25,907 nt of DNA from the IMG/VR virus record IMGVR_UViG_3300034073_002508, positions 1-25,907 of that record, one strand, 5' to 3'. This document shows positions 1-25,426 of this stretch, in pieces. A program made the translations under genes and the position numbers. The notes beneath the pieces were generated by a model. It was not told the DNA's origin. It saw nothing but the letters and a program-made list of their open reading frames with translations, and searched no databases. The DNA is from a virus. Each line of letters starts with the position of its first letter. The stretch's first letter is position 1.

Positions 1-153
1 CGCACAAACTATGTTGACGATTCACATGTGATGCCTTCTGAAAAGGCATACGGTGAGCCATTTACAAAGATTATCAACGGCCTTTATATTCACATACGTT
101 CGGCATCAGTAACTAAATGGGATGGCCAGCCACGATACAAAAGCGAATACTAA
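1..153 (+). CDS. C-terminal end of an unknown phage protein (partial)
   Basis: The reading frame is open from the first base of the window and ends at TAA 151-153, giving the last 50 residues of a protein that starts upstream. The tail is hydrophilic and mixed in charge, ending in RYKSEY; there is no membrane segment or motif that I recognise. It lies on the same strand as everything else and is followed by a short hairpin and then the next small gene, so it is probably the end of an accessory or replication-region gene. Function unknown. Confidence 0.6.
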   Translation, partial: RTNYVDDSHVMPSEKAYGEPFTKIINGLYIHIRSASVTKWDGQPRYKSEY

Positions 154-162
154 ACATAAACC

Positions 163-183
163 GGGCCGGCTAACCACCGGCCC
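163..183 (+). other. GC-rich hairpin after the first gene
   Basis: Perfect inverted repeat: GGGCCGG at 163-169, a 7-base loop, and CCGGCCC at 177-183. It begins 10 bases after the stop of the partial gene and ends 14 bases before the next start. An A-rich stretch follows on the + strand, not a T run, so it is not a standard intrinsic terminator. It could stabilise the 3' end of the upstream mRNA or act as a weak terminator. Confidence 0.5.
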
Positions 184-197
184 AAAAATAACTAATT

Positions 198-443
198 ATG
201 ACAACTCAACAACTTTGGAGCAAACTACAATTTAAAGCGGAATTTAGCGGCGTTGCTATTTGCCATTGGAATATTGACGGCAAATCAATTATCATCAGGA
301 GTACAGATAAGGCAGCCATTGCCGCCGTTGATCGCTTGGAGCGCTGTTTGTTAGATCCAAAAGACTCCTACAATGGATTGACAGTTCGTAAAGCTCTAAA
401 TATTTTATATAAGCTATGCAAGTCCTATATAAATCCGAAATAA
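198..443 (+). CDS. Small unknown protein, 81 aa
   Basis: Codes for 81 residues, beginning MTTQQLWSKL. The start is the first ATG of the frame and follows the A/T-rich leader aactaatt, a leader type shared with other genes here (for example those at 8806 and 23331), which supports it. The protein has mixed charge, two cysteines and no membrane segment or signal peptide. Its 3' end overlaps the start of the next gene by 28 bases, which suggests coupled translation. It resembles the small fast-evolving proteins found between replication and packaging modules. Function unknown. Confidence 0.6.
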   Translation: MTTQQLWSKLQFKAEFSGVAICHWNIDGKSIIIRSTDKAAIAAVDRLERCLLDPKDSYNGLTVRKALNILYKLCKSYINPK

Positions 444-643
444 CCTACACCGGCAACGGCGCCGGCTTGCTTTATCTGACTAACAAAGAAACGGGAAAAC
501 GGATCAACTACGACTCGCACATGCCCGCGCATCTTGCATCGGTAAAGTATCAGGAGTTGTTAAAGGTAGATGTTGTCATTGTTAAAGATGTCACTTTACT
601 TGACATTCCTATATTTTACTTAGCTACAAAAAAAATTGTGTAA
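416..643 (+). CDS. Small unknown protein, 75 aa
   Basis: Codes for 75 residues starting MQVLYKSEITYTG. Overlaps the upstream gene by 28 bases in a different frame; no later ATG would keep the same fold. The predicted content alternates short beta-like stretches (VDVVIVKDVTLLDI) with a basic C-terminus (ATKKIV). No membrane segment or familiar motif. The gene is followed by the best promoter candidate of the window. Function unknown; the overlap makes the start slightly uncertain. Confidence 0.55.
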   Translation: MQVLYKSEITYTGNGAGLLYLTNKETGKRINYDSHMPAHLASVKYQELLKVDVVIVKDVTLLDIPIFYLATKKIV

Positions 644-647
644 ATAC

Positions 648-678
648 TTGTACAAGAACTTTCAACTACTTACTTTTG
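648..678 (+). promoter_or_regulatory. Bacteroidota-type promoter candidate
   Basis: TTG at 648-650 and TACTTTTG at 671-678 are separated by 20 bp. This matches the consensus known for the primary sigma factor of Bacteroidota (-33 TTTG or TTG, -7 TAnnTTTG). The -7 box sits 19 bases before the ATG at 698, in the 54-bp gap between two genes, which is where a promoter would be expected. Transcription would give a leader of about a dozen bases and would also read into the structured interval at 926-1110. Single TAnnTTTG matches occur by chance in a sequence this long; the position and spacing are what make this one credible. Confidence 0.5.
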
Positions 679-697
679 TCAAATAATTGTTACCGAT

Positions 698-925
698 ATG
701 AAATGTTTATTATTCGCATTACTCACAATTGGCGCTAAATTAAGCGCACAAGGCCCGGCAATCATTCCCGCCGCGCCATTCCACCCACAAGAAGCAGTTA
801 AGAACATACCGACACCAAAGCCCGTGCGAATGAGCGCGGGCGCTCCAAAGATCATTAGTGACAGCATCACTCTTCCACCGGTAAAACCGACATTAGTGGT
901 AAGGCAACCGTCAAAGCGGTCGTAA
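698..925 (+). CDS. Small exported proline-rich peptide
   Basis: Codes for 75 residues. Residues 1-17 form a signal peptide: Lys2, a hydrophobic core (LLFALLTIGA), then LSA followed by Gln18, the expected signal peptidase I site with Gln at +1 as is usual in Bacteroidota. The predicted mature part is about 58 residues, rich in Pro, Ala and Lys, with several PP or KP pairs and no cysteines, so probably unfolded in the periplasm. The only cysteine (Cys3) lies before the core, so it is not a lipoprotein signal. A promoter candidate lies just upstream, so the gene may be expressed independently. Possible roles are a periplasmic effector, lysis aid or superinfection protein; none can be shown. Confidence 0.6.
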   Translation: MKCLLFALLTIGAKLSAQGPAIIPAAPFHPQEAVKNIPTPKPVRMSAGAPKIISDSITLPPVKPTLVVRQPSKRS

Positions 926-940
926 GATTGCGGAAACAAC

Positions 941-960
941 GGGAGTCAAATGAGGCTCCC
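941..960 (+). other. Hairpin at 5' side of structured interval
   Basis: GGGAGTC at 941-947 can pair with GGCTCCC at 954-960 (7 bp, one G-T wobble) around a 6-base loop. It starts 15 bases after the stop of the exported peptide gene and is followed by AAATAT, so there is no T run. It may mark the 5' boundary of the RNA structure that follows. Confidence 0.45.
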
Positions 961-965
961 AAATA

Positions 966-1045
966 TCAGGGCAATGGTTAGCGGTTTACACTCACAACTG
1001 AGAAGTATTTTTCGCCCGCTGCTGGTTCGATTCCGGCGCCTTGAC
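966..1045 (+). ncRNA. tRNA-like RNA without a D stem
   Basis: A T arm is plain: GCTGG 1021-1025, loop TTCGATT 1026-1032, CCGGC 1033-1037, including the typical GGTTCGATTCC. Directly after it, GCCTTGA 1038-1044 pairs with TCAGGGC 966-972 as a 7-bp acceptor-like stem with one G-T wobble. AGCGG 980-984 pairs exactly with CCGCT 1016-1020, which abuts the T arm. Between acceptor and this helix is only AATGGTT, containing a GG like that of a D loop. No normal D stem or 7-base anticodon loop fits; inside the 31-base loop is a small hairpin (CTCA 991-994 with TGAG 999-1002). No CCA follows. The layout recalls the tRNA-like domain of tmRNA or a degenerate tRNA. A T7 run at 1059-1065 could end the transcript. 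A tRNA-derived attachment site is another possibility. Confidence 0.4.
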
Positions 1046-1067
1046 GTGTGAAAGAATGTTTTTTTGT

Positions 1068-1095
1068 AGGGGCGTGGCGAACGAGTCGCGCTCCT
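1068..1095 (+). other. Hairpin at 3' side of structured interval
   Basis: AGGGGCG 1068-1074 can pair with CGCTCCT 1089-1095 (7 bp, one G-T wobble). Stacked inside it, CGA 1078-1080 can pair with TCG 1086-1088, leaving TGG as a bulge. It lies between the T7 run and the start at 1111, so it would sit in the leader of the small membrane protein gene and could affect its translation. Confidence 0.4.
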
Positions 1096-1110
1096 TTCCC
1101 TTAAAAGATT

Positions 1111-1242
1111 ATGGATACTCTTAGATATATACTTGGCTTTTTATTTTTACTTACTCATTGCGTGATGTTAATTTGCTTAATGCTGGGCTTTATAGGAGTA
1201 ATGATATTTCTTGTTAATGCGGCCATAAAAGGAGAAATGTAA
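1111..1242 (+). CDS. Small membrane protein, 43 aa
   Basis: ATG 1111 opens 43 codons ending at TAA 1240-1242. The protein is almost entirely hydrophobic from residue 6 to 38 (YILGFLFLL, then VMLICLMLGFIGVMIFLV), enough for one long or two short membrane spans, with a short charged end (KGEM). The stop overlaps the next ATG by one base (TAATG), so the genes are translationally coupled. Size and hydrophobicity fit a small phage membrane peptide such as an exclusion factor or holin-like peptide, but nothing in the sequence settles its role. Confidence 0.55.
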   Translation: MDTLRYILGFLFLLTHCVMLICLMLGFIGVMIFLVNAAIKGEM

Positions 1243-1490
1243 TGATAAAAGAAATAGTCACAGAAACGGCAATTGTTGATTTAGACAATTATGCGGAAGA
1301 GCTTGAAGTTCTTGAAGGCGTGTTGGATCAAAAGCTTAGGTTGATTTATTATAAAGTTTATCGATTGCAGACGTATGAAATAGACTTAATAAAAAAAACA
1401 GCCAATTGCGTTTGGTTAATAATGCCTAATAAAAAAACGCCGCCCGAATTACCTAAAACAACAAAACCTATCAATCAAATAGGCCGATGA
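1242..1490 (+). CDS. Small unknown protein, 82 aa
   Basis: Codes for 82 residues beginning MIKEIVTETAIV. The ATG overlaps the preceding stop by one base, and AAAGGAG lies a few bases upstream, one of the few Shine-Dalgarno-like runs here. The first half is acidic and probably helical; the second half holds a short hydrophobic strand (CVWLIM) and a Lys/Pro-rich tail (KKTPPELPKTTKP), probably disordered. The stop overlaps the next start as ATGA. By eye the gene is more A/T-rich than the head and tail genes. Function unknown. Confidence 0.55.
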   Translation: MIKEIVTETAIVDLDNYAEELEVLEGVLDQKLRLIYYKVYRLQTYEIDLIKKTANCVWLIMPNKKTPPELPKTTKPINQIGR

Positions 1491-1738
1491 CTAAATTTAA
1501 AGGCGCAAAACTGAAAGGGTTTAAAGATCCTAAAAAGTTTTTAGAGCTTATTAATCATCCGCTTATAAATGTAATAGACGCAAGTATAAAAGCAATAGAG
1601 CCGACTAATTGGAACCGTCACGGTTTTGTGGCTTATGTTTTGTACAAAGATGTAAGGTTTTTGTTGCCAACAAATATTACAGGCAGATTAAAGGCGTCAG
1701 GAAACTATCAATACACAAAAACAAAGATTAAGCGTTGA
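1487..1738 (+). CDS. Small basic unknown protein, 83 aa
   Basis: Codes for 83 residues beginning MTKFKGAKLKGF, overlapping the upstream gene by ATGA. The protein is strongly basic at both ends (GAKLKGFKDPKK and YTKTKIKR) with a hydrophobic middle that includes FVAYVLYKDVRFLLP. A basic charge could mean nucleic-acid binding, but no known fold is recognisable. It is the last gene before the hairpin terminator at 1781, closing the small unit 1111-1738. Function unknown. Confidence 0.55.
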   Translation: MTKFKGAKLKGFKDPKKFLELINHPLINVIDASIKAIEPTNWNRHGFVAYVLYKDVRFLLPTNITGRLKASGNYQYTKTKIKR

Positions 1739-1780
1739 ATAAAGAAGTTTTCATATTTTTTGGTTAGTTAGTTAAAGTTG

Positions 1781-1809
1781 CCCGGTGCGTTTAGGCGTGC
1801 CGGGTTTTT
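1781..1809 (+). terminator. Intrinsic terminator
   Basis: CCCGGTGCG 1781-1789 pairs with CGTGCCGGG 1796-1804 (9 bp including two G-T wobbles) around a 6-base loop, followed directly by TTTTT 1805-1809. It lies 43 bases after the stop at 1738 and ends 5 bases before the ATG at 1815. It probably ends transcripts of the small accessory genes, with read-through feeding the packaging genes. Confidence 0.65.
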
Positions 1810-1814
1810 GCATT

Positions 1815-2030
1815 ATGAGTGAACGAAAAGAACCTATATTTGTAATAAAGAATGGCATTGAAGTACTCAACGCAAAATCCGGACTATGTATGCTCACTGG
1901 CTTTATGTTTATGTCGAACGAATGGAGTAAAAGAGAGTATGCAGAAGCAAGAAGGAAACGCGGCGTTGATTTTAATGAACGAAGGCGAAAAGGATATAAG
2001 GAACAAATGCAAAGTAAGGATGCAAAGTAA
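1815..2030 (+). CDS. Small basic protein, probably truncated by a frameshift
   Basis: Codes for 71 residues from ATG 1815. An earlier in-frame ATG at 1785 lies inside the terminator stem and is not credible. The C-terminal half is very basic and probably helical (EARRKRGVDFNERRRKGYKE), which suggests RNA or DNA binding. The frame ends at TAA 2028-2030 inside a 13-bp tandem duplication. Removing one repeat copy joins this frame to the one ending at 2112 and gives a continuous 94-residue protein that ends with ATGA coupling to the HNH gene. I read it as the N-terminal part of a disrupted gene; reinitiation at ATG 2020 could still supply the rest. Function unknown. Confidence 0.5.
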   Translation: MSERKEPIFVIKNGIEVLNAKSGLCMLTGFMFMSNEWSKREYAEARRKRGVDFNERRRKGYKEQMQSKDAK

Positions 2031-2032
2031 GG
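2007..2032 (+). repeat. 13-bp perfect tandem duplication that shifts the frame
   Basis: ATGCAAAGTAAGG occurs at 2007-2019 and again, directly adjoining, at 2020-2032; an A follows both copies. Thirteen is not a multiple of three. In the upstream frame the first copy reads MQSKD and then meets a stop in the second copy. In the downstream frame the second copy again reads MQSKD and runs on to 2112. This is the pattern expected after a slipped-strand duplication inside a gene. Confidence 0.85.
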
Positions 2033-2112
2033 ACGATATTACGGTAACACAGGGTAACGCGCTCGCAACGCTGCAAAGTATTGCGGGCATTATTAAGCAC
2101 GATATAACATGA
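2020..2112 (+). pseudogene. C-terminal fragment of the disrupted small gene
   Basis: From ATG 2020 the frame codes for 30 residues (MQSKDDITVTQG..., ending IIKHDIT) and stops at TGA 2110-2112, overlapping the HNH start at 2109 as ATGA. That tidy junction argues that this frame is the genuine 3' end of the gene starting at 1815. The ATG lies 8 bases before the upstream stop, so reinitiation could produce this short peptide. The same frame is also open back to an ATG at 1852, but there it runs against the better frame. Treat as the second half of a split gene. Confidence 0.5.
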
Positions 2113-2441
2113 CACGTATAATAAAGCATCAGCCGCGACCGTGGCAGCCCGAAAGGAAGGCCCAAGAGAGGCGCCGCAATAATAACAACGAGTTTTACAA
2201 CTCCCAAGCGTGGAGGAAGTATCGCCGCGCGTTTATAGATAACAATCCTTTGTGCGTTGCATGCGATGGGAATGGATTGTTTGTTGTTGGTACGGTAGTG
2301 GATCACATTGTACCTATCAACGAGGGCGGCTCTAAATGGGATATATCTAACCTGCAAACGTTGTGCGATAGTTGTCACGCTATTAAGTCAGGAAGGGAGG
2401 CCCACACCGGGCGCAAACGTCAAGGGGATGGGGGGGTCTAA
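2109..2441 (+). CDS. HNH endonuclease next to the terminase genes
   Basis: Codes for 110 residues. The HNH beta-beta-alpha metal fold is visible: CVAC (Cys49, Cys52), VDHIVPI (Asp65, His66), GG at 73-74, Asn81, then CDSCH (Cys86, Cys89, His90). The four cysteines would bind a structural zinc and His66 is the general base. A basic, Asn-rich N-terminus (residues 10-27) precedes YNSQAWRKYRR, the usual lead-in of phage HNH proteins. Length is typical. HNH proteins beside small and large terminase genes are known in several phages to assist the terminase in cutting cos ends, so this one probably serves DNA packaging rather than homing. Starts by ATGA overlap; 104 bases separate it from the small terminase. 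Confidence 0.88.
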   Translation: MTRIIKHQPRPWQPERKAQERRRNNNNEFYNSQAWRKYRRAFIDNNPLCVACDGNGLFVVGTVVDHIVPINEGGSKWDISNLQTLCDSCHAIKSGREAHTGRKRQGDGGV

Positions 2442-2545
2442 TCTCTACGCGATCCTGGGCAACACCGCCGCTGCCACTTTTCGTAGGGTCGGGCAGTGTT
2501 TTGGGCCTATGGTATTAAGATTAAATCTAAACAAGCCGTAAAAAC

Positions 2546-3010
2546 ATGAGAAAGTTACCGGACAAAGTCAAAGAACAGCGCGGAACGCTTAAAAAAAGCC
2601 GCGTCAATCCGGGCCAACCAATCGCCCGACAAATAACAACAATTCCAACTCCGCCTCCATCATTGCCGGAATCCGCGCATCGTATTTGGTACGACCAATG
2701 TACTAATCTTTGCGAGATGGGAATTTTAACGGCCGCCGATCTTGCATTGGTAGAATCCTTTTGCGTCGAGAAAATGAAGTACGACCGAGCGACTGAGTTT
2801 CTCGAAACAAGCGGACTTAAAAAGCCGGGAGATATGCTTGATAGTACCAATAAGGGAAATACTAAGATGGTATCATTGTACATTAAGATTCAGGATCAAG
2901 CGTTGGCAAACATGATTAAAATAAGTAGCCGGTTTGGATTTGATCCTGTCAGCCGTACAAGTATTGGAGCGTCGGAGGTCAAGAACGATCCGTTAAGTGA
3001 TTTAATATGA
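2546..3010 (+). CDS. terS: Terminase small subunit, P27 family
   Basis: Codes for 154 residues. The order of elements fits the P27 family: a basic N-terminus with RVNPGQP (residues 19-25), a Pro-rich linker (PTPPPSLPESA), a helix with IWYDQC, then MGILTAADLALVESFC, and a helical C-terminal half. It recognises the packaging site and regulates the large subunit. Position just before the large terminase, with an ATGA overlap at 3007-3010, supports the call. The intergenic 2442-2545 contains no other gene that I can see; a 5-bp palindrome (2518-2528) lies close to the start and may be chance. Confidence 0.85.
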   Translation: MRKLPDKVKEQRGTLKKSRVNPGQPIARQITTIPTPPPSLPESAHRIWYDQCTNLCEMGILTAADLALVESFCVEKMKYDRATEFLETSGLKKPGDMLDSTNKGNTKMVSLYIKIQDQALANMIKISSRFGFDPVSRTSIGASEVKNDPLSDLI

Positions 3011-4707
3011 AAGCAGAGGAGGCGCGCAAATTAGTAGATGACTTTATTTCCGAAGGGCTCAATCCGGAATCGGTATTTAGTTCGTGGGCGCGCAAATTAG
3101 TAGCTCAACACGTTGCAGACTTGGAAGCGGCAAAGTCAAAAGATTATCTTTACTACTTTGACGAGGCCGCCGCAATGCACATTTTACAGTTCTTTGAACA
3201 TATACAATTTTCAGAGGGCAATTTTCGCGGCAAACCTTTTGATCTTCACGGATGGCAGGCTTTTACTTTGTGGTGCGTTTATGGATGGAAGGTAAAGAGT
3301 AATGACTGGCGGCGATATTTTAAAGTATATATCAAAATCGCCCGAAAAAACGGGAAGACAGAGTTTTTGAGTGGAATTGGCATCTACGGGCATCGCTTCG
3401 ACAAATACGAACGCGACGCGCAGGTATATTGGTTTGCGACCGCCAAAAAACAAGCGACAATCGGATTTAGGAAGCAGCAAGCAATGACGCGACTTTTGTG
3501 CGCGAAATCGCCAACGTATTCGAGTAAAGTTCGCGTCTATACTCATTCAATCTCCGATCGGGACGCCAATGGATTTACGTCGTATTTGGGCCGCGACTCA
3601 AAATCTGAAGATGGAACAAATCCTTTTTACGGTATTTGTGACGAGTACCACGCTCACCCAAATAACGATATGATGGACGTAATTGAATCCGGAATGGGCG
3701 CGCGTAAAAGCCCTTTGATTTGGGTAATTACGACAGCGGGTAAAAATCCGGATGGAGTTTGCGCGACATTTGAAAAAACCTGTAAACAAATACTTGATGG
3801 CGTAATACCTAATCCAGGTATTTTCCCTTTGATATTCGACATTGACCAAGATGACGACTGGCAGGACGAGCGGATATGGAAAAAGGCAAATCCTTCGCTT
3901 GGTGTATCCATCTCTTACGACTATCTACGCCGGGAGCTATCAAAGGCGCTCACAGAAGGAACCACCGCAAAAAACAACTTCCTTACCAAAAATCTAAATG
4001 TTTGGGTAACGTCGTTAGATAATTGGATTGATGATGCCGACTGGATGCAAGGCGCTGAGATTGTTACAGAGTCGGAGCTGATTGGCCGCTCTTGTGTTGG
4101 CGGGCTTGATTTGGCATCTAATTCAGATACTTGTTCCCTCATTTGGTTATTCCCTCCCGAAAACGAAGGCGAAAAAATAAAGATATTATTTCGATGTTGG
4201 GTCCCTGAGGATGAAGCGATAAAGGTCACAAAGCTTCGCGGCTTCCCTTACCTTAAATGGATCGAAGATGGCGAACTAACCGCAACTCCTGGCAACGTCA
4301 CCGACTACGACTATATTTTAAAGCAAATTGACGAAGACGCTCAAAAGTTTAAAATTCACTCTATTGGGTACGACCGCTATGGCGCCGGACAAGTTTCTAA
4401 ACGCCTAACTGATTCGGGAATAATGGTTTCTCCGTTTGGTCAGGGCTTTCTATCGATGTCGGCTCCTACAAAGGAATTGGAACGATTAATTAAAAGCGGA
4501 CAAATCCAACACGGAGGGAACCAAGTACTACGCTGGATGGCATCTAACGCAGTAGTTCAACAAGATCCACACGAAAACATTAAGGTTGTCAAAGGTGAAG
4601 CGTATGGAAAAGTAGATGGAATTGTTGCGCTTGTTATGGCCTTAGGGCAATGGGTGACTTTTAATGACGAAATAAACACGAATTACAACGTATTCACGAT
4701 ATTATGA
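3007..4707 (+). CDS. terL: Terminase large subunit
   Basis: Codes for 566 residues, the usual length for the Terminase_1 type of HK97-like phages. ATPase domain: FDLHGWQAF (78-86) is the adenine-binding region, ARKNGKT (112-118) the Walker A-like loop and YGICDE (208-213) Walker B with catalytic Glu213; ITTAGK (241-246) fits the coupling motif. Nuclease domain: Asp368 in GGLDLAS, Asp456 in GYDRYGAG and Asp537 in KVDGIVALVMA are the expected metal ligands. It translocates DNA into the procapsid and cuts the concatemer. All key residues are present. The N-terminus has ARKLV twice (residues 6-10 and 28-32), coded by a 17-bp repeat. Overlaps terS and thyX by ATGA. Confidence 0.95.
   Translation: MKAEEARKLVDDFISEGLNPESVFSSWARKLVAQHVADLEAAKSKDYLYYFDEAAAMHILQFFEHIQFSEGNFRGKPFDLHGWQAFTLWCVYGWKVKSNDWRRYFKVYIKIARKNGKTEFLSGIGIYGHRFDKYERDAQVYWFATAKKQATIGFRKQQAMTRLLCAKSPTYSSKVRVYTHSISDRDANGFTSYLGRDSKSEDGTNPFYGICDEYHAHPNNDMMDVIESGMGARKSPLIWVITTAGKNPDGVCATFEKTCKQILDGVIPNPGIFPLIFDIDQDDDWQDERIWKKANPSLGVSISYDYLRRELSKALTEGTTAKNNFLTKNLNVWVTSLDNWIDDADWMQGAEIVTESELIGRSCVGGLDLASNSDTCSLIWLFPPENEGEKIKILFRCWVPEDEAIKVTKLRGFPYLKWIEDGELTATPGNVTDYDYILKQIDEDAQKFKIHSIGYDRYGAGQVSKRLTDSGIMVSPFGQGFLSMSAPTKELERLIKSGQIQHGGNQVLRWMASNAVVQQDPHENIKVVKGEAYGKVDGIVALVMALGQWVTFNDEINTNYNVFTIL
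3021..3103 (+). repeat. 17-bp direct repeat in the terL start region
   Basis: GGCGCGCAAATTAGTAG is found at 3021-3037 and at 3087-3103. The 66-base offset is a multiple of three, so both copies code for ARKLV in the same frame. It may be a small in-frame duplication in the N-terminal helix, or a DNA signal within terL, for example near a packaging site. Confidence 0.7.
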
Positions 4708-5411
4708 TAAACGCAAACAAAGTTGAACTTTTAGGCTATTACGGATCGGACGAAACAATCGCGTTAAGCGCTTGGACTTCAACGAGCCGTGAATTATCGC
4801 ACGAAAAGCGCGAACGAATACCAGCGCTAATTAATCAACTTTGGAGCGCCGATCCAGTTCCACACGGAACGCCATTTGAAAAAGGAATGGTGCACTTTTT
4901 AGTTACAGCCGACATTGCAACGCATATTCATTTTTTAAAGCATCGAATTAGCAGCATAAACGCAGAAAGCGCGCGTTACAAAGAATTGAAGGAAGACAAA
5001 GTTTTTGTGCCGGTAGATTTTAAGCACGCTCAATTAAATTATGATGAAATAACAGATCCGGAGGTTAATGCTTTTTTTGTTACGCAATTACACGAACCGT
5101 ATAACTGGGGCAGCGCTTTATCATTATTCAGCAACTTATCAAACGCCCTATATCACGAAGCTGTTAAGCAGCTAACGCCGCAACTTGGCAGGAAGCGCGC
5201 CAAAGAGTCGGCAAGGTATTTTAAATTGTATAACTCGCAGATAACCTTTGACGTAATGTTTAATCTTCGATCCTTCCATAATTTCTACACTCAAAGAGCC
5301 GACAAGCACGCCCAGGTAGAAGTCCGTGAAATTGCCCTACAAATGATGGAATTGATTAAAAGCATTGAGGGCCAACCGTTTAAACACACCTTAAAAGCGT
5401 GGGGCGTTTAG
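4704..5411 (+). CDS. thyX: Flavin-dependent thymidylate synthase
   Basis: Codes for 235 residues. The ThyX signature RHRxxSxNxxSxRY appears at 79-92 as KHRISSINAESARY, with Lys instead of the first Arg. Other family marks are PHGTPFEKG (53-61), FNLRSFHNFYTQRAD (186-200) and KHAQVEVREIA (201-211), which supply FAD and dUMP contacts (Arg189, Gln204, Arg208). The enzyme methylates dUMP to dTMP using methylenetetrahydrofolate and FAD with NAD(P)H. Length is normal. It overlaps terL by ATGA and lies between terminase and portal, so it is expressed with packaging genes rather than with replication genes, an odd place for a nucleotide enzyme. It would supply dTMP during late phage DNA synthesis. Confidence 0.93.
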   Translation: MINANKVELLGYYGSDETIALSAWTSTSRELSHEKRERIPALINQLWSADPVPHGTPFEKGMVHFLVTADIATHIHFLKHRISSINAESARYKELKEDKVFVPVDFKHAQLNYDEITDPEVNAFFVTQLHEPYNWGSALSLFSNLSNALYHEAVKQLTPQLGRKRAKESARYFKLYNSQITFDVMFNLRSFHNFYTQRADKHAQVEVREIALQMMELIKSIEGQPFKHTLKAWGV

Positions 5412-5611
5412 TCGAAGCCCGTGAATTTAAAAAACAATACGATGACGCCTGTATAAACGAACCATACAAGGCGCGGTATTTGATTTATAATGAATTAGAA
5501 CAGGCATTTTTTGCGAAAAAAGGGCGTAAAAAGTATAAGAATTACGGAGTTTTCCGAAAATGCCTATCTATTATGCGAAAAAACGAACAGAAAAAGGTTA
5601 AACGCCTATAA
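5399..5611 (+). CDS. Small basic unknown protein, 70 aa
   Basis: Codes for 70 residues from GTG 5399, overlapping the end of thyX by 13 bases; no ATG is available in this frame before residue 59. The protein is rich in Lys and Arg, especially at the C-terminus (KKGRKKYKNYG, then RKNEQKKVKRL), and in Tyr. It has no membrane segment. The charge suggests nucleic-acid binding, perhaps related to packaging. Start codon and reality of the gene are less secure than those of its neighbours. Function unknown. Confidence 0.5.
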   Translation: MGRLVEAREFKKQYDDACINEPYKARYLIYNELEQAFFAKKGRKKYKNYGVFRKCLSIMRKNEQKKVKRL

Positions 5612-5663
5612 TGTTACCCAAAAAAAGCGGTAAAACGTGCAATATCCTACCATATTTGCACAA

Positions 5664-6899
5664 ATGGCACTATTTGACCAATTCAAGGCCTTAATCGGCT
5701 CAAAACCGGAACAGCGCTCGACGTTGTCGAATCCTTCAAGCTGGTTTATCGAATGGCTTAATGGCGGGCCTTCCGTTGCCGGTCAAAAAGTCAATCCGGA
5801 AACAGCACTAAAAGTATCTACCGTTTACGCGTGTGTTAGCCTACTTTCTCGCACAATTGCGAGCCTTCAATTAGGATTTTATAGAAAGTTAGAGGACGGC
5901 TCCGAAGAGATTACAGGCACTCCCGAGCAGTACGCCGTATGTATTGAGCCAAACGACCGGATGACATCCTACACTTGGCGGAGTACATTTATGCTCCATT
6001 TAATGATGAGGGGCAACGCGTATGCCAAATTGAAGTTTGACCGTACAGGCCGCGTTTCCGGATTCCAAATACTCCATCCGGATTTTGTCGAACCGTACCT
6101 TTACAAAGGAAAAATATTTTACAAGAACACAAACGAGGGAGTAAGCGAAACACTCGACTCCGGAGAGGTTCTCCACATTCGGAACTTCTCCGATGACGGC
6201 ATCGAGGGTAAAAGCCCGCTAACCTATGCGCGTGAATCCGTTGGAATGGCATTGGCCGCAAATGATTACGCCGCGGCGATGTATGAAAATGGCGGGGGGC
6301 TTCGTGGGATTGTAGAAACTCCTATACCGCTCGATCAAAAGCAGGCCGATTTTATGCGCGAAAATTTCCTTCGTGTAATGCGCAATTATAAAGAAACAGG
6401 ATCAATCGGTGTATTAGATCGCGGTGCTAAATTTCAACAAATCGCGCTCAGTCCTAAGGATGCACAATTCATCGAATCGTCAAATATGACTGTTCGCGAA
6501 ATTGCCCGTTTTTTTGGAGTTCCGCTCCACTTAATTGGCGACCTTGAACGCGCTACTTTTGGAAATATCGAACACCAATCAATCGAGTTCGTAACGCATA
6601 CAATTCGTCCAATCGTCAAGAACTTTGAGGATGAATTGAACCGGCGCGTTATACGCAAATCGGATCGAGCTAACTATTTTTTCCGCTTTAACCTTGATTC
6701 CTTGTTACGCGGCGACACCCAAGCGCGCGCGCAATACTACTCACAAATGTTAAATGCGGGCGTTATGAGTTTGGACGAAGTTCGCCGCCTTGAAAATATG
6801 AATCCAATCGCCGACGGGCTTGGCAAAAAGCATTATATCCAGGTCAATATGACTACTCTTGAAAATTTACAAGCTCCTAACAATGACCCACAACAGTAG
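5664..6899 (+). CDS. Portal protein, HK97 type
   Basis: Codes for 411 residues from ATG 5664 (MALFDQFKALIG). A GTG nine codons earlier (5637) is in frame, but the ATG gives the usual N-terminus of the family. Recognisable stretches include ALKVSTVYACVSLLSRTIASL, the MRGNAYAKL strand, VLHIRNFSDDGIEGKSPL and the stem region with EIARFFGVPLHLIGDLERATFGNIE. The C-terminal half has the helical crown region and LNAGVMSLDEVRRLENM. Twelve copies would form the ring through which DNA enters and to which the neck attaches. Its stop lies 17 bases inside the protease gene, so the two are coupled. Confidence 0.93.
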   Translation: MALFDQFKALIGSKPEQRSTLSNPSSWFIEWLNGGPSVAGQKVNPETALKVSTVYACVSLLSRTIASLQLGFYRKLEDGSEEITGTPEQYAVCIEPNDRMTSYTWRSTFMLHLMMRGNAYAKLKFDRTGRVSGFQILHPDFVEPYLYKGKIFYKNTNEGVSETLDSGEVLHIRNFSDDGIEGKSPLTYARESVGMALAANDYAAAMYENGGGLRGIVETPIPLDQKQADFMRENFLRVMRNYKETGSIGVLDRGAKFQQIALSPKDAQFIESSNMTVREIARFFGVPLHLIGDLERATFGNIEHQSIEFVTHTIRPIVKNFEDELNRRVIRKSDRANYFFRFNLDSLLRGDTQARAQYYSQMLNAGVMSLDEVRRLENMNPIADGLGKKHYIQVNMTTLENLQAPNNDPQQ

Positions 6900-7560
6900 A
6901 ACAATATCGGACGCAGAAGTACGCCTTGCAAATATTGGAGCGCTCGAACAACGCGCAGAGAATGACAATTCAATGAGAATTGGCGGCACTGCCGCAATAT
7001 TTGATACTTATACTTCGATGGGTTGGTACTTAGAAAAGGTGAACCGTTCCTTTTTTGATGGAATGGACACGTCCAAAACCGCCGCCCTAAAAAACCACGA
7101 TTCAAATTTAGTACTTGGCAGAACCGCAAATAACACACTCCGATTAAAAGTCGATGACAAAGGACTGCAATACGAAGTTGACCTACCGGACACGCAAATA
7201 GGCCGCGACACTTATGAGGAGGTTAAACGCGGCGATATATTCCAAAGCTCATTCCAATTTACCGTAAAGGACGAAAATTGGAGCGAATTGGATCCGGATG
7301 AACTACGCGGCAAAATTCCGGACGAATGGATTGACCGCGCAATTTACGGCGGTAAAGTACAAGTTAGGGAACTACTAAAAGGCGGCACGCTTTACGACGT
7401 TGCGCCTGTTACGTTCCCAGCCTACCAAGATACAACAGTGGCCAAGCGTTCATTTGAGGGCGCAAAAAAAGTAGAAGCTCCAAAAAACCAAAACATAAAC
7501 ATCCGGTTGGCAATTGCAAAAGCAAACGCGGCCGCTTTTTTAAATTCAATCAAATTTTAA
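6883..7560 (+). CDS. Prohead protease, HK97 type
   Basis: Codes for 225 residues from ATG 6883 (MTHNSRTI). An upstream TTG in the same frame lies deeper inside the portal gene and is less likely. The serine protease fold of HK97 gp4 is indicated by IGGTAAIFDTYT (33-44), LKNHDSNLVLGRT (69-81) with catalytic His72, and FQSSFQFTV (120-128) with the catalytic serine at 122 or 123, then LYDVAPVTFPAYQDT (170-184). It removes the delta domain of the major capsid protein and then itself during maturation. It lies directly between portal and major capsid. The C-terminal 40 residues are Lys- and Asn-rich, as in self-cleaved tails. Confidence 0.93.
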   Translation: MTHNSRTISDAEVRLANIGALEQRAENDNSMRIGGTAAIFDTYTSMGWYLEKVNRSFFDGMDTSKTAALKNHDSNLVLGRTANNTLRLKVDDKGLQYEVDLPDTQIGRDTYEEVKRGDIFQSSFQFTVKDENWSELDPDELRGKIPDEWIDRAIYGGKVQVRELLKGGTLYDVAPVTFPAYQDTTVAKRSFEGAKKVEAPKNQNINIRLAIAKANAAAFLNSIKF

Positions 7561-7561
7561 A

Positions 7562-8803
7562 ATGAACTTAGAGCAAATCCAAGAACTTAAAAAGCGGCAC
7601 GACAACGCAGTTAGTGCCATGAAGGAAGCTGCCTCCGCGCTCAACGTGGAAGGGCTTACCGATGTCCGCAAATCCGAATTAGAGGCAACTTTTGCCCGCG
7701 CTGAGAAGGAGCAGGAAGAAGCCTACCAATCCTTTCAACGCAGCCAAAAAGCTTTTGAAGCTGAAAAACGATCAGCAGAGCTTTTTTATGAGAACGAGGA
7801 GAGAGGAGGTCGCGCAAATGATAAGCGCAATCCTGAGGAAGTAAACGCCGACTTTAACGCCGTTTTCCGCAAATACATGATTCAAGGCGAAGCGCGTATG
7901 ACAGACGCCGAGCGTTCTATTTTGGAAAAACGTGGAACTAATACGCTAATCGCTGGCACTAACTCTTTGGGCGGTTTTACCGTTCCTGTAAGCCTTGCAA
8001 ATCAGATCATTGAGTCAATGAAGGCGTATGGCGGTGTTTTGGAAGTTGCAAATTTGCTTTTGACGGATTCCGGAAATACCCTAAATTTCCCTACTAACAA
8101 TGACACGAGCGCCAAAGCGGTACTCGTTGCCGAAGGTAGCGCCGCGACTGTTCAAGACACAACCTTCGCGCAGGTTGCCGTTGGTGCGTACACTTACCGC
8201 GATCTTATTAAGCTTTCAAAGGAGCTTATCCAAGATAGCGCATTTGACATTGAAGCGTATGTGGCTAATTTGATGGGTACGCGTTTTGGCCGTGCTGCAA
8301 ACGAAAGTTGTACAACCGGTACAGGGTCTTCCCAGCCTCAGGGAGTTGTAACAGGTTCAACACTTGGTAAAACCGCCGCGTCCGCTACTGCAATTACCTT
8401 TGCCGAGATTCTCGACTTGGTGCACAGCGTAGATCCTGAATACCGTCGGAACGGTCGCTTTATGATGCACGACAATGTACTTGCGTATATCAAAAAGCTA
8501 TCAATCGGAGCATCTGACGCGCGTCCATTATGGCAGCCTTCCTTTATCGTGGGCGAACCTGCAACAATTGACGGATTCCAATACGTCATCAACCAAGACA
8601 TGGACAGCACAATCAACACTGCTTCCAAGTTGATCTTGTTCGGCGATTTCAGCAAGTACTTGGTTCGTCAATCTCGCGCGTTGGAAATATTGCGGAATGA
8701 GTACTTATACATGGGTACTGGCGAAATTGGATTGTTTGGCTTCGCTCGTTGGGACGCGAAACTACTTGACACCGCAGCAGTTAAGCACCTAATCACCGCT
8801 TAA
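7562..8803 (+). CDS. Major capsid protein with N-terminal delta domain
   Basis: Codes for 413 residues. Residues 1 to about 75 are charged and coiled-coil (KKRHDNAVSAMKEAA, ARAEKEQEEAYQSF), matching the scaffolding delta domain of HK97-like capsids; no separate scaffold gene is present. The mature part begins near the conserved TNSLGGFTVP (133-142). Further family marks are YTYRDLIKLSKELIQDS and, near the end, EIGLFGFARWDAKLLDTAA. Removal by the protease is predicted somewhere between residues 75 and 125. It starts 2 bases after the protease stop, has no Shine-Dalgarno sequence, and is probably the most expressed gene of the window. Confidence 0.96.
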   Translation: MNLEQIQELKKRHDNAVSAMKEAASALNVEGLTDVRKSELEATFARAEKEQEEAYQSFQRSQKAFEAEKRSAELFYENEERGGRANDKRNPEEVNADFNAVFRKYMIQGEARMTDAERSILEKRGTNTLIAGTNSLGGFTVPVSLANQIIESMKAYGGVLEVANLLLTDSGNTLNFPTNNDTSAKAVLVAEGSAATVQDTTFAQVAVGAYTYRDLIKLSKELIQDSAFDIEAYVANLMGTRFGRAANESCTTGTGSSQPQGVVTGSTLGKTAASATAITFAEILDLVHSVDPEYRRNGRFMMHDNVLAYIKKLSIGASDARPLWQPSFIVGEPATIDGFQYVINQDMDSTINTASKLILFGDFSKYLVRQSRALEILRNEYLYMGTGEIGLFGFARWDAKLLDTAAVKHLITA

Positions 8804-8805
8804 TT

Positions 8806-8997
8806 ATGACTATTCGTGTTTTAGATAGTCTTGTTGGCCACGATGAGGATGGCGACTTTGGATACGGCAAAGGTATCCATAAAGACGTACCGGAGTCACG
8901 CGCCAAGCGGTTAATCAAAGATGGCTTGGCAGTTATTGCAGAAGTCCTAATTGAAGCGGCCACAGACGCAATCGTAAAAAAAGCAACAAAGCGATAA
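8806..8997 (+). CDS. Small capsid-adjacent protein, 63 aa
   Basis: Codes for 63 residues. The core (FGYGKGIHKDVPESRAKRLI, then KDGLAVIAE) fits a short phage domain usually found next to capsid genes, with the pattern of a G-rich turn, a hydrophobic strand, then 'A..LI..GLA'. The C-terminal tail is helical and basic. A similar pattern is found in the protein at 14261. It begins two bases after the capsid stop and ends just before the connector gene. It could be a capsid decoration or head completion protein; the precise role is not known. Confidence 0.75.
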   Translation: MTIRVLDSLVGHDEDGDFGYGKGIHKDVPESRAKRLIKDGLAVIAEVLIEAATDAIVKKATKR

Positions 8998-8998
8998 A

Positions 8999-9580
8999 AT
9001 GAAATACTTGCCGTCCGCAATAGAGCTAACCTACTCTTCCTCCTTGCCGGTCACAGTCGATGAGGCTAAAACGCATTTACGCGTTACCGGGAGCGCAGAG
9101 GATACTATCATAGAGGCCTATTTGCGGGCGGCAATTCGCTTTGTCGAACAGTACTGCCAAATGTCGCTTTTGGGCGCTACGGTAGTGGAAACTTACCGGA
9201 GTTTTCCGGATGATGACCAACCATTTAATTTGACCTACGCGCCATTTAGCTCGCTCACGTCGATAAGTTATTCAGTTAGTACAAATCCGGCGACGTTCAC
9301 CAATTTGGCATCGAGCGAATATGTTATTGAGAAGCACACACAAAGTCAAAGGGGAGTAGTCGTTCCGGTTGATGGATGGAACGCAACCGCAGAGCCATTC
9401 CAGGTTAAAGTCACGTACTCGACCGGATATGCGAACGCGGCGGCGGTTCCTGCTAACTTGAAAATAGCTGTTTTTTTGATTTTAGCTGACATTTACGAAA
9501 ATCGCACCGATTCACCGTCGGACGCTGTTATACGCGTATCCGAGCGCTTTATGTCACCCTATACTCGATTTGTGATATGA
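8999..9580 (+). CDS. Head-tail connector (gp6-like adaptor)
   Basis: Codes for 193 residues. The N-terminus has the typical connector start LPVTVDEAKTHLRVTGSAED, then IEAYLRAAIRFVEQYCQMSL, which form the helical bundle of HK97 gp6-type adaptors. A beta-rich insertion follows (FPDDDQPFNLTYAPFSSL ... VKVTYSTGYAN) and a last helix with IAVFLILADIYENR, a strongly conserved stretch in this family. The protein forms a ring under the portal. Its stop overlaps the next gene as ATGA. Confidence 0.9.
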   Translation: MKYLPSAIELTYSSSLPVTVDEAKTHLRVTGSAEDTIIEAYLRAAIRFVEQYCQMSLLGATVVETYRSFPDDDQPFNLTYAPFSSLTSISYSVSTNPATFTNLASSEYVIEKHTQSQRGVVVPVDGWNATAEPFQVKVTYSTGYANAAAVPANLKIAVFLILADIYENRTDSPSDAVIRVSERFMSPYTRFVI

Positions 9581-9912
9581 TGCGCAACAAAAAAGAAACC
9601 ATTGGTAAATTAGACCGCCAAATAACAATACAACGGCGCGCCCTTGTTGAAAATGCAACTGGCGAACGCGTAGAAACGTGGTCTAATTTATTGACTGTTT
9701 GGGCGTCTGTTATATATCCAAAAAGCGGAGTTCGTGAAGATGTCACAGAAGGCGCAGTCTATGCAACTAATCGGGCAAACTTTGAGATTCGTAAAACAGA
9801 CGTAACGGTAATTGATCGGATTGTTTACAATGGAGATAATTGGGACATAATACGTATATCCGAGCAAGGAAGAAACGATCGTTTAATACTTGAAACGCAG
9901 GTAACAGAATGA
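9577..9912 (+). CDS. Head closure protein (SPP1 gp16-like)
   Basis: Codes for 111 residues. The pattern is that of the phage head-tail joining family: IGKLDRQITIQRRALVENAT at the start, VETWSNLLTVWASVIYPKSG in the middle, then FEIRKTDVTVIDRIVYNGDN and WDIIRISEQGRNDRLILETQ. It is a small beta barrel that closes the neck after packaging. Two ATGs in tandem (9577 and 9580) are possible starts; the first gives the ATGA overlap. Order connector, closure, gp10-like, DUF3168-like is the standard neck order. Confidence 0.9.
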   Translation: MMRNKKETIGKLDRQITIQRRALVENATGERVETWSNLLTVWASVIYPKSGVREDVTEGAVYATNRANFEIRKTDVTVIDRIVYNGDNWDIIRISEQGRNDRLILETQVTE

Positions 9913-10421
9913 ACGAACAATTAGCAAAGGAAGTCGAGGAGCTGTTAAAAGAATTTAGGCAGATAGCGCGCAACGCCAAGCGCGGCACAAGCGCTATTTT
10001 AACCAAATCGGCTAAACCCGTAGTAGCAGCCCTTTACCGGGCAGCACCACACGGCCGCGAAGTCCATAAACGGTACAGTACTGCAAAACTCGTTAAGAGT
10101 ATGCGAGCGCCAAAGGGCCGCGGCAATGTAGTAGCGACCTATTATCCTGGCAACCTCGCTGCATCGTTTGACGTGCTACGGTTTAGGCAAAGTAAATACG
10201 CGGTTTTTGTAGGTGCGAAATTAGCAAAGGGAACCGCTCAGGGCGTTTTTGGGCCATTTGGCAAAACGGATGGATACTATGCTCACATGATCGAGAAAGG
10301 CACGCGCCACACGCCACCAAGACCGTTTATTTTGCCGACTTGGATAATGATGAAGGAGCGCACACAAAAAACGATTGTAGAGGGCTTAAAAGCCAAAATC
10401 AAACGCCTAAAAAAAGTATAA
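9909..10421 (+). CDS. HK97 gp10-like neck / tail completion protein
   Basis: Codes for 170 residues. Helical N-terminus (VEELLKEFRQIARNAKRG) is followed by KPVVAALYRAAPHGREVHKR and, towards the end, YYAHMIEKGTRHTPPRPFIL, the signature of the gp10-like family (Y....E.GT....PRPF). This protein belongs to the neck, at the junction between head closure and tail. Very basic C-terminus (KAKIKRLKKV). Starts by ATGA overlap and ends by TAATG overlap. Confidence 0.88.
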   Translation: MNEQLAKEVEELLKEFRQIARNAKRGTSAILTKSAKPVVAALYRAAPHGREVHKRYSTAKLVKSMRAPKGRGNVVATYYPGNLAASFDVLRFRQSKYAVFVGAKLAKGTAQGVFGPFGKTDGYYAHMIEKGTRHTPPRPFILPTWIMMKERTQKTIVEGLKAKIKRLKKV

Positions 10422-10975
10422 TGAACGTTCAAGGCCCAATCCGAAAAATAATAGCAGATAACACCGACGCGTTTGCCATCTTTGGTACGCGCGTTTATCC
10501 GGTCGTGGCTCCTCAAAACGCGGCCCTTCCATTCGCTGTTGTTACGGTAGTAGGCTCCAATCCAGCGCACAATAAAAGCGCAGCAAGTTGGGTAGATAAC
10601 GTTTTAACAGAGGTTGCAATTTGGGGGACGACATTTGACGAAGCGCGCCAAGCAGAGGAAGCGTTTAGACAGGCAATAGACTTTTTTCGGCGCGATGTTA
10701 CATTTCAGCTCGAACTAACAAGTATTGACGGCATTAGATACGAGCAAGTCCGACAAATTTACGACAACGATTCGGGTTATCATTGCCACATTGCACAGTA
10801 TACAATCCGGGTTAATCGACAAAACGCAGTCGGCCCACCATTGCCCGTGTACGGTCGTTTTTTCACCCACGATGCCGACGCGCTCGCGGCCGGTATGCAA
10901 TCGGGCGACCTCTACTTTTTATCAATCAATAACTATTACGGCCTTCCTTATGGGGTCGTTAAAATGATAGAATAA
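10421..10975 (+). CDS. Tail completion protein (DUF3168-like) with an added C-terminal module
   Basis: Codes for 184 residues from ATG 10421, which overlaps the preceding stop by one base; an in-frame upstream ATG (10340) lies inside the gp10-like gene and is rejected. Residues 1 to about 135 fit the tail completion/terminator family: QGPIRKIIADNTDAFAIFGT, LPFAVVTVVGSNP, EVAIWGTTFDEARQAEEAF and YHCHIAQYTIRV. It would cap the tail tube and join it to the neck. Residues 138-184 form an extra module (RFFTHDADALAAG, GDLYFL, YGLPYG) that is not part of the usual family and reappears as the separate gene downstream. Confidence 0.82.
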   Translation: MNVQGPIRKIIADNTDAFAIFGTRVYPVVAPQNAALPFAVVTVVGSNPAHNKSAASWVDNVLTEVAIWGTTFDEARQAEEAFRQAIDFFRRDVTFQLELTSIDGIRYEQVRQIYDNDSGYHCHIAQYTIRVNRQNAVGPPLPVYGRFFTHDADALAAGMQSGDLYFLSINNYYGLPYGVVKMIE

Positions 10976-11136
10976 TGATAGTTAATCCGGACGGCCCACT
11001 TCCATCGATCAAAGTACGCTTTTTTGATTCGGACGCCGACGCGCTCGCATCAGGTTTGAACGTTGGCGACCTTTATTTTTTGACTGCCAATAATTTTTAC
11101 GGCCTACCTTACGGAATTTTAAAAATTGTATTTGGA
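10832..11136 (+). repeat. Diverged duplication of a ~46-codon module
   Basis: The coding segment 10832-10972 (end of the tail completion gene) and 10993-11136 (most of the 54-aa gene) code for related sequences. Aligned without gaps from RFF to the last shared Lys, 25 of 36 residues are identical, including DADALA, GDLYFL and YGLPYG. The 161-base offset is not a multiple of three because a stop and start (TAATG) lie between the copies. DNA identity is lower than protein identity, with many third-position changes, so the duplication is old and both copies have been kept by selection. Confidence 0.8.
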
Positions 11137-11139
11137 TGA
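10975..11139 (+). CDS. Stand-alone 54-aa 'GDLY..YGLPYG' module
   Basis: ATG 10975 overlaps the preceding stop by one base and opens 54 codons to TGA 11137-11139, which overlaps the next ATG (11136). The protein begins MIVNPDGPLPSIKV and then repeats the C-terminal module of the upstream tail completion protein: RFFDSDADALASGLNVGDLY, then FYGLPYG and a final strand LKIVFG. Short sequences of the type 'D..AA...GL.VGDLY' are frequent in phage structural proteins, where their role is unclear. Tight coupling on both sides and conserved module suggest a real gene, possibly a small virion or tail-tip component. Confidence 0.7.
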   Translation: MIVNPDGPLPSIKVRFFDSDADALASGLNVGDLYFLTANNFYGLPYGILKIVFG

Positions 11140-13253
11140 GATATATATTAATAATTGCCGCGCTTTTTTGCAGTTTACCGCAAATTTTCGCACAAAATAA
11201 CATTACGTACGGCGCTGGCATCAGCTACACCAACGGCGCGCCTTCATTTACACCTCCCGCGCGTACTTCGCGAGTAGCAATTGACACCATAACAGGCAAA
11301 TGGTATCACTACAACACGCCCGGAGGTTGGCAGCTACTTGGCAACACGATTGAAGAAATTGCAGGATGCAGCGCACCAGCATACACGCCCACAAAAGGCG
11401 ATAGTAGGGTCGTTATTAATAACTGCACAAGTCCGGAGTTGTACTATTGGACCGGCTCCGCTTGGGTTTGGATTAATGAAGGGACAACCTACTACGCGGG
11501 CGAAGGCATCCGGATTCAAAATGACAGCATTATTCTTGACAGTCTATACTACTTGCAATTTAGGACAGGCGATACCACCGACTTAGACGCGGGTCGGCTT
11601 AGTTGGAACGCTCAGGAGGGAACCTTAGACGTTGTAATAAATTCGGGCAACGTCACCGGGCAAGTTTTTGAAGATGTATTTTTTAACTGCAAAAATCAAA
11701 CAGGCTCCACAATTACGAGAGGTACAGTAGTAATGGCGGTTGGTACTTTTGGCGCATCGGGCCGTATTTTAATCGCTCCTGCTATTGCCGATGGATCTGT
11801 AAACAGTGAATATATTTTAGGTACAGCGGCTCAAGATATTGCAAATGGTGGCGATGGTTTGGTTTACCATTTTGGCAAAGATAGAGGCTTAAATACAACG
11901 GGCGCGAGTTGTGGTGAAACGTGGGCAGATCGTGACGTACTTTATTGTAGCGCTACAACTGCGGGGTGCTTAACCAAAACAATACCAACAGCGCCTAACT
12001 TAAAGGTTCCTGTTGCTATTGTATTAAATGCAGCAAGCAATGGAACTATATTTGTCAGACCTTCGCACTTCCCAGACCTTAATCAAATAAACGACGTACA
12101 ACTAACAAGCCCGACAACAGGACAAACGCTAATTTATAACGCGAGTACAGGCGTTTGGTCAAATCAAACTCCAGCCGATCCAAGCCCTACCAACGAGCTG
12201 CAAACGCTATCAGTAGTAACGAACACAGCTACACTTTCAAGCGGTGGAGGGTCGGTAACTATTGCAGGTGCTGGTATTAATACAGTAGGTACAGCAGGCA
12301 CTACGATTACGGTGACAGGTACGGAGGTAGATGGAAGCGTAAGCAACGAGCTGCAAACATTATCAACTGGAACCAACACTTTAACTTTATCAAATGGAGG
12401 CGGCACCGTTACGGTTGATACCGATCCGTCAAGTGATGTGACAGGGTCAGGCGCGAGCGGACAGGTATCTTTTTGGACAGGTGCGCAGACGCAAAGCGGT
12501 GACAATGGATTATGGTGGGATAACACCAATAAACGATTAGGAATCGGCCCTACTTCGCCAAGCGACAATTTACATATTGTTGCTCGAACAGGAACAAATC
12601 CAAGATTAAAAATTGGAGATGCTGATTTAACAAATCCATTTTCAGGGATTGAGGGCGTAGCAAGTACAATAGGAACTATTGAATTATTTAATATATCAGG
12701 CGGAGGACTATTGCATAGAGGCTATTCGATGAATAACGCAACTCCTGGAATAGTTTTTTTGGGACTTATAGGAAGTAATACTCCTCAAGCATCTGCAATT
12801 GAATTTCGTTCAGCTAAATTATCTGGAAATACATTTGCAGCTATAGGAGATTCTGAAATAGCTTATAATTTTAGGAATTTTAATGGTACACAAAATTACT
12901 TTCAAGTTAGAGGATCTGGAGATTTTGGAATAAATGCATCACCAGCAGCCCGACTTCACGTAGTCGGCTCCGGCTCAACCTCAACCACTTGGACAGCGCA
13001 ATTTCACAACAGCGATGGCAATAATAACGCCCTGATGGTTCGTAATGATGGAATAGTTTCAATAGGAACTGCAAGCCCTAACGGTTCTGGAGTACTGGAG
13101 ATTAGCAGCACCACACAAGGCGTTCTTTTTCCACGCATGACCACCACCCAACGCAACGCAATAACAACACCAGCCGATGGCCTTGTAATTTACAACACAA
13201 CAGACAACAAACTGCAAGTAAGGGCCGCAGGCGTTTGGGTAGACCTTCACTAA
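11136..13253 (+). CDS. Exported fibre-like protein, 705 aa
   Basis: Codes for 705 residues. Residues 1-19 form a signal peptide (RYILIIAALFCSL core, IFA then Gln20). The mature part is beta-rich, full of Thr, Gly, Asn and Ser. NELQTLS...TL(S)GGG..T repeats occur at residues 353 and 404 (51-residue period). The end has VGSGSTSTTW, SIGTASPNGSGVLEISSTTQ, LFPRMTTTQRNAI and VIYNTTDNKLQVR, a pattern very common in fibre and surface proteins of Bacteroidota and their phages. This would fit a tail fibre or receptor-binding protein, yet a signal peptide is unexpected for a virion part. Codon use changes to A/T-rich between about 12570 and 12945, as if that segment was exchanged. It may instead act at the cell surface. 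Confidence 0.7.
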   Translation: MRYILIIAALFCSLPQIFAQNNITYGAGISYTNGAPSFTPPARTSRVAIDTITGKWYHYNTPGGWQLLGNTIEEIAGCSAPAYTPTKGDSRVVINNCTSPELYYWTGSAWVWINEGTTYYAGEGIRIQNDSIILDSLYYLQFRTGDTTDLDAGRLSWNAQEGTLDVVINSGNVTGQVFEDVFFNCKNQTGSTITRGTVVMAVGTFGASGRILIAPAIADGSVNSEYILGTAAQDIANGGDGLVYHFGKDRGLNTTGASCGETWADRDVLYCSATTAGCLTKTIPTAPNLKVPVAIVLNAASNGTIFVRPSHFPDLNQINDVQLTSPTTGQTLIYNASTGVWSNQTPADPSPTNELQTLSVVTNTATLSSGGGSVTIAGAGINTVGTAGTTITVTGTEVDGSVSNELQTLSTGTNTLTLSNGGGTVTVDTDPSSDVTGSGASGQVSFWTGAQTQSGDNGLWWDNTNKRLGIGPTSPSDNLHIVARTGTNPRLKIGDADLTNPFSGIEGVASTIGTIELFNISGGGLLHRGYSMNNATPGIVFLGLIGSNTPQASAIEFRSAKLSGNTFAAIGDSEIAYNFRNFNGTQNYFQVRGSGDFGINASPAARLHVVGSGSTSTTWTAQFHNSDGNNNALMVRNDGIVSIGTASPNGSGVLEISSTTQGVLFPRMTTTQRNAITTPADGLVIYNTTDNKLQVRAAGVWVDLH
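12570..12945 (+). other. A/T-rich segment inside the fibre-like gene
   Basis: Within the 705-aa protein, roughly residues 479-603, third positions become mostly A or T (for example aga, tta, ggaatagtt, ggagattttggaataaat), whereas both flanks use the GC-richer codons seen in the rest of the operon. The coded segment contains FNISGGGLLHRGYSMNNA and AIEFRSAKLSGNTFAAIG. This looks like a domain acquired by recombination, common in receptor-binding regions. The boundaries are by eye. Confidence 0.5.
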
Positions 13254-13269
13254 AAAAAACAGACATACA

Positions 13270-13884
13270 ATGAAAAATACACTAATATTTACCCTGCTCT
13301 TAACAGCGCTACAAATGCAAGCGCAAACAATTATAACAGATACTACCTTCATCACGCCAACCGCGCAGGGGTTATACCTTACGCACTTGACAATTGACGA
13401 TCAAGGCAAGCGGATGCAAACAGATGTACCCATCACCGATACGGTACAGCAGGCGCAAGCGCTTAGGCGGTTGTCAAGCCAAGAAATAGGCAGGCGGGTA
13501 GCAGATATGCGAGTAGTACAAAAATACCGGGCAGAGATAGGAGGGATGATTCGAGATGGCAACCAAATAGAAAGCGCCTACGGAGTAATTTTGTTTGACA
13601 CAACCGGACAGAAAGATTTAACGCTGCAAACATGGTCGCTAAAAGGTTACACCCAACAAACAACTATATTTTTTCGAGTGGTTAAAGTGCAGGGTTTAGA
13701 CCGCTTGCAATGGTCGTTTACAAAGGCCACAGGCACTTGGAAGCGGGCCTACTACTCACCGGGCTACCTTCGCCTTACGGAATGGGATAGTGAAGGATTT
13801 ATTGAATATTTCCAAAATGGAAACAACTGGTATTCATTGGGTACGGATTATGTGATTCGGCCCGCAACGGTTGTGAAGCGATGA
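13270..13884 (+). CDS. Exported protein of unknown function, 204 aa
   Basis: Codes for 204 residues. Residues 1-18 are a signal peptide (KNTLIFTLLLTAL core, MQA followed by Gln19). The mature protein begins QTIITDTTFITPTAQGLYLT and has mixed alpha/beta character, with a charged helical section around LRRLSSQEIGRRVADMRVVQ and an aromatic C-terminal half (YYSPGYLRLTEWDSEGF). No transmembrane part after the signal and no lipobox. It follows the exported fibre-like gene by 16 bases, so both are probably expressed together. The C-terminus overlaps the next small gene as ATGA. Could be a chaperone or partner of the fibre-like protein, or a periplasmic factor. I do not recognise the family. Confidence 0.65.
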   Translation: MKNTLIFTLLLTALQMQAQTIITDTTFITPTAQGLYLTHLTIDDQGKRMQTDVPITDTVQQAQALRRLSSQEIGRRVADMRVVQKYRAEIGGMIRDGNQIESAYGVILFDTTGQKDLTLQTWSLKGYTQQTTIFFRVVKVQGLDRLQWSFTKATGTWKRAYYSPGYLRLTEWDSEGFIEYFQNGNNWYSLGTDYVIRPATVVKR

Positions 13885-14000: not shown

Positions 14001-14021
14001 GACAAATACCCAAATAAACAA

Positions 14022-14548: not shown

Positions 14549-14556
14549 ATTCCATT

Positions 14557-21977: not shown

Positions 21978-21978
21978 T

Positions 21979-22305: not shown

Positions 22306-22316
22306 ATTATACTATT

Positions 22317-23191: not shown

Positions 23192-23208
23192 TTCCTTTTG
23201 CCTTTTTG

Positions 23209-23238: not shown

Positions 23239-23248
23239 ATGTATGTTT

Positions 23249-23256: not shown

Positions 23257-23330
23257 TATAAAAACTATGTTAAAATTTTGGAAATAAAGTTGTAATGTAT
23301 TTACATTTGCAAAAACAAAAACAGCTAATT

Positions 23331-25424: not shown

Positions 25425-25426
25425 AT

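Follow-up and report, generated by a model that had tools for sequence, protein, structure and literature searches.

A 13-bp tandem duplication lies where a small gene (hereafter gene A), a short leader ORF (ORF B) and an HNH endonuclease gene meet in a cos-type tailed phage with a small genome of about 36.4 kb; judging from related sequences, the duplication is probably old and fixed, with termination-reinitiation as the simplest account of how the boundary is translated. The window analyzed here is the whole of one IMG/VR virus record, 25,907 bases in length. Its relevant features are the following.

1780-1805, + strand: terminator-like hairpin with an 11-bp stem and a 4-nt loop, followed by a T run (z = -2.67; exact in five relative contigs)
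1815-2030, + strand: gene A, a complete 71-aa ORF (judged by its pN/pS and by a stop kept in all relatives)
2007-2032, + strand: the repeat, two head-to-tail copies of ATGCAAAGTAAGG (TRF, direct scan), within the variable C-terminus of gene A and containing the gene A stop and the ORF B start
2020-2112, + strand: ORF B, 30 codons, overlapping gene A by 11 nt and the HNH gene by 4 nt (pN/pS 1.4; ATA start in the relative L006)
2038-2092, + strand: frozen core of ORF B, 55 nt (one variable column among the window, L003, L005 and L006)
2061-2088, + strand: weak candidate for an RNA hairpin in the core, with an 8-bp stem, an inner 3-bp stem and a GCAA loop (z = -0.55)
2109-2441, + strand: HNH endonuclease gene of the packaging type (PF01844, 2e-10; PHROG 589, 9.8e-30)
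2465-2475, + strand: putative cos overhang CCGCCGCTGCC, an 11-nt 3' overhang (from contig ends)
2546-3010, + strand: terminase small subunit gene, terS (PHROG 83, PF05119)
3007-4707, + strand: terminase large subunit gene, terL (PHROG 9, PF20441, PF03354)

The head-to-tail duplication described in the initial annotation is real: TRF reports period 13, 2.1 copies and a 100% match at 2007-2033, and a direct scan of the window for exact tandem duplications with periods of 8 to 30 found this case only. The chance expectation, from 40 simulations with the same trinucleotide make-up, is about 0.025 exact tandem duplications with a period of at least 13 per window. The frame that opens at ATG 1815 stops at TAA 2028-2030; ATG 2020 opens the +1 frame, which ends at TGA 2110-2112 and overlaps the HNH start (2109) in an ATGA. 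The annotation was likewise correct about this early stop and the ATGA junction, about the 94-residue length of the frame that results when one copy is removed, and about the packaging neighbors (HNH endonuclease and the small and large terminase subunits). Both copies do encode MQSKD, in two different frames. The motif TGCAAAGTA, a part of the 13-bp unit, occurs in the window at 2008, 2021 and 2072, and the third occurrence falls inside the possible hairpin of the ORF B core.

A search of the IMG/VR viral contigs with the 71-aa gene A protein matched five contigs, namely one from the same phage (L002) and four from distinct strains (L003, L004, L005 and L006) that are all close relatives (80-96% identical in gene A); queries with gene A, with ORF B and with a DNA pattern for the ORF B core each returned the identical five. 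One end of the L002 contig (36,536 bases) corresponds to window positions 1-14643, and its positions 4484-11391 correspond to 19000-25907, with 100% agreement at every place compared; as far as this comparison goes, the window and L002 are two assemblies of one phage. The two ends of L002 coincide over about 127 bases in its coordinates, which implies a circular map of about 36.4 kb. Since L002 also carries two copies of the repeat, an assembly error, named in the initial annotation as a potential refutation, is unlikely.

The 11-nt overlap between A and B and the ATG restart recur in the strains L003 and L004, whose repeat copies have diverged and read ATGCAAAGCAAGG followed by ATGCAAAGTAAGG and ATGAAAAGCAAGG followed by ATGCAAAGTAAGG, respectively. 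In L006, the overlap is kept, with the stop of gene A at the matching TAA; the first copy survives in degenerate form, and a single change in the second copy converts the restart codon to ATA. The shared arrangement with diverged copies indicates that the duplication is old. In L005, gene A ends with NE-stop and is followed by a 75-aa ORF and then by ORF B, which has its own ATG 4 nt past the stop of the 75-aa ORF; the spacing from the core to HNH is unchanged. The alignment with relatives that had been proposed as a check for one-copy versions encoding the 94-aa protein produced none: no fused or one-copy form of A-B is present among L002-L006, with the overlap retained in L003, L004 and L006 and the additional ORF intervening in L005. 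This 75-aa ORF (L005 positions 1110-1337) weakly matches the Acb2/Tad1 hairpin domain (12.8 bits vs a cut-off of 27), has a single-sequence fold with a pLDDT of 60, and is a possible anti-defense gene.

Beyond these strains, gene A is absent from 12 other contigs that share TerL, an absence that carries little weight because most of these contigs start at cos, downstream of it or within terL. Genome contigs queried with gene A and with TerL yielded no relative; INPHARED phages gave no match to window positions 1-8000 (blastn) or to the gene A protein, and their TerL matches are all less than 60% identical, the best about 39%. Upstream of the distant HNH relatives L012-L015, no A- or B-like frame was seen when the frames were read by eye.

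Gene A and the HNH gene are under purifying selection, whereas ORF B shows no protein-level signal. Over its first 60 codons, gene A shows pS of 0.297 and pN of 0.052 (pN/pS 0.17), and the HNH gene, over 85 codons, shows pS of 0.218 and pN of 0.035 (pN/pS 0.16); these ratios identify both as real genes and gene A as complete at its present length. In the ORF B segment (26 codons from D5), pS is 0.065 and pN is 0.091, and the resulting ratio of 1.4 makes the segment after A unlike what a conserved end of the 94-residue protein would show. Neither gene A nor ORF B matched Pfam or PHROGs, and the AlphaFold model of gene A has a pLDDT of 49.9, too low for use. The terminator-like hairpin that ends 9 nt 5' of the gene A start is a strong one and is included in 54 invariant bases (1757-1810). 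Because L003 and L004 differ just upstream of this stretch, it looks like a mosaic boundary.

Contig ends suggest that the junction lies near a physical end of the genome. Four contigs with different metagenome ids (L023, L026, L027 and L031) all start at the same base, ACTTTTCGTA, equivalent to window position 2476, and L004 ends with CTGGGCAACA, equivalent to position 2464, followed by one odd base; the 11 nt CCGCCGCTGCC between these contig ends suggest a 3' overhang lost during library making. With cos so placed, A, B and HNH would be the last genes before the right-hand end. The adjacent HNH, terS and terL genes fit a module of the HK97 type; in HK97, the HNH protein gp74 promotes cleavage of cos, and the 3' overhangs are given as 10 nt and, elsewhere in the same paper, as 12 nt (PMC9410871). 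The present phage resembles HK97 in this gene order and in a putative 3' overhang of about 10-12 nt (PMC9410871) and differs in that the overhang is deduced from contig ends and that no counterpart of A or B is stated for HK97. A gene for a ThyX-type thymidylate synthase (4704-5411) lies directly 3' of the TerL gene.

The reading that we favor is that the variable tail of gene A acquired a tandem duplication long ago, which would have been fixed before the known strains diverged. The repeat contains the end of the A C-terminus together with its stop, and the second copy provides the start of ORF B; ribosomes that end A would restart at ATG 2020, traverse B and restart again at the HNH ATG, with HNH synthesis thus following A synthesis. 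We infer this translational coupling, and the leader role of B, from the layout of the junction: the frames are on the same strand with overlaps of 11 nt (A/B) and 4 nt (B/HNH), and the A/B overlap with its ATG is found in the window, L003 and L004 (ATA in L006; an ORF ending 4 nt before B in L005). The co-directional frames, the ATGA at B/HNH and the short A/B overlap are shared with overlapping gene pairs coupled by termination-reinitiation (PMC6728339, PMC10666635). Among such pairs, a spacing of -4 nt is the commonest, followed by -1 and -8 nt, and reinitiation drops steeply with a wider gap (PMC10666635). The 11-nt A/B overlap, created by a tandem repeat, is unlike these common classes and exceeds them, which argues against coupling. 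The ATA in L006 also argues against the chain: either a rare start is needed there or the chain does not work in that strain. The evidence for this reading comes from only four distinct relatives, all close (at least 80% in gene A).

The initial annotation offered three options, of which the stop/restart arrangement alone survives, its coupling being presumed; the other two fall to the refutation that the annotation itself had named, since the relatives keep the frames apart. Slippage between one and two copies, which would toggle the 94-aa protein on and off, draws on the perfect repeat in the present phage and on the frame shift that a 13-bp change causes, and the head-to-tail repeat whose copy number would alter the frame is indeed reminiscent of phase variation by tandem-repeat slippage. 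Unlike such loci, however, the present repeat has two copies only, which are fixed across the relatives and diverged (in L003, L004 and L006), the frames in L003 and L004 having stayed apart in the process; among the contigs found, copy number does not vary between close relatives and no one-copy version exists, and the segment that the 'on' state would add shows no protein-level constraint. A switch, contradicted by the relatives, is therefore very improbable. The identity of the copies in the present phage is also what would be expected had a mutation recently inactivated a 94-aa gene, but this option is contradicted by the stop and overlap that L003, L004 and L006 share with the window, an arrangement that, with its diverged copies, must be old, and by the purifying selection on gene A at its present length; we give it hardly any credence. 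A programmed +1 frameshift joining A and B would fit the +1 offset seen in the window, L003, L004 and L006; it is extremely improbable, given that the AAG-decoding tRNA cannot re-pair at AAG TAA, that A and B in L005 are separated by an ORF that starts and stops independently, and that B lacks protein-level selection. The duplication might have split an ancestral A-B fusion before the known relatives diverged, the two-frame state then becoming fixed. This scenario concerns origin only and is thus compatible with the old junction and reinitiation that we prefer. The frames are out of register by exactly one unit length, the unit reads MQSKD at the end of A and at the start of B, and degenerate traces of a second copy are seen in L006 and perhaps in L005; yet no fused relative was found, and the changes in B are not those of an evolving protein, which leaves chance as a possible source of the continuous frame. 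We consider such an origin unlikely.

A less likely alternative is that B is not a gene and that the frozen core acts as a site in the DNA or RNA (an HNH leader, an operator or a signal for packaging located upstream of cos), the overlap with A being incidental. The last codons of ORF B drift, whereas the core hardly varies, even at synonymous sites: synonymous-only changes affect 0 of its 20 codons vs 35 of the 145 codons of A plus HNH (Fisher p = 0.008, for a test chosen post hoc with the data already seen). The pN/pS of ORF B, the missing ATG in L006 and a spacing to HNH that stays constant even with an ORF inserted upstream point in the same direction. On the other side, the terS start (2591-2661), cos (2460-2524) and the hairpin region before A (1757-1810) are as frozen or more so, the B frame is open in all relatives, and no Rfam family matched window positions 1600-2700. 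The core hairpin with its GCAA loop can form in all five sequences, but its stability is no better than that of shuffles, and covariation is absent because the sequence is invariant. A resemblance of the core to the cos sequence was unconvincing (GGGYAACRC occurs three times in the window, chance 0.97). Since L006 has ATA at the restart and B changes in a way unlike a protein, this ORF may be just a leader or an element that acts as nucleic acid, and possibly no more than a translated leader or bridge. The pattern that the initial annotation named as refuting its interpretation, two separate conserved proteins with the same overlap, is seen in part: the frames are apart in the relatives and A is conserved as a protein, but the conservation of B lies in its nucleotides and does not look like that of a protein.

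Under the preferred reading, then, a repeat that in one genome resembles a switch or a broken gene turns out, once relatives are compared, to be a stable and ordinary gene boundary. It is a speculative and rather improbable extension that the frozen 55-nt stretch is a control or packaging element (an RNA leader or a DNA site), translated in passing as a short ORF, and that it would link cos cleavage or HNH production to the end of the late transcript. If the leader does act on the HNH gene, it would add a minor detail to how cos-type phages adjust the level of their packaging endonuclease.
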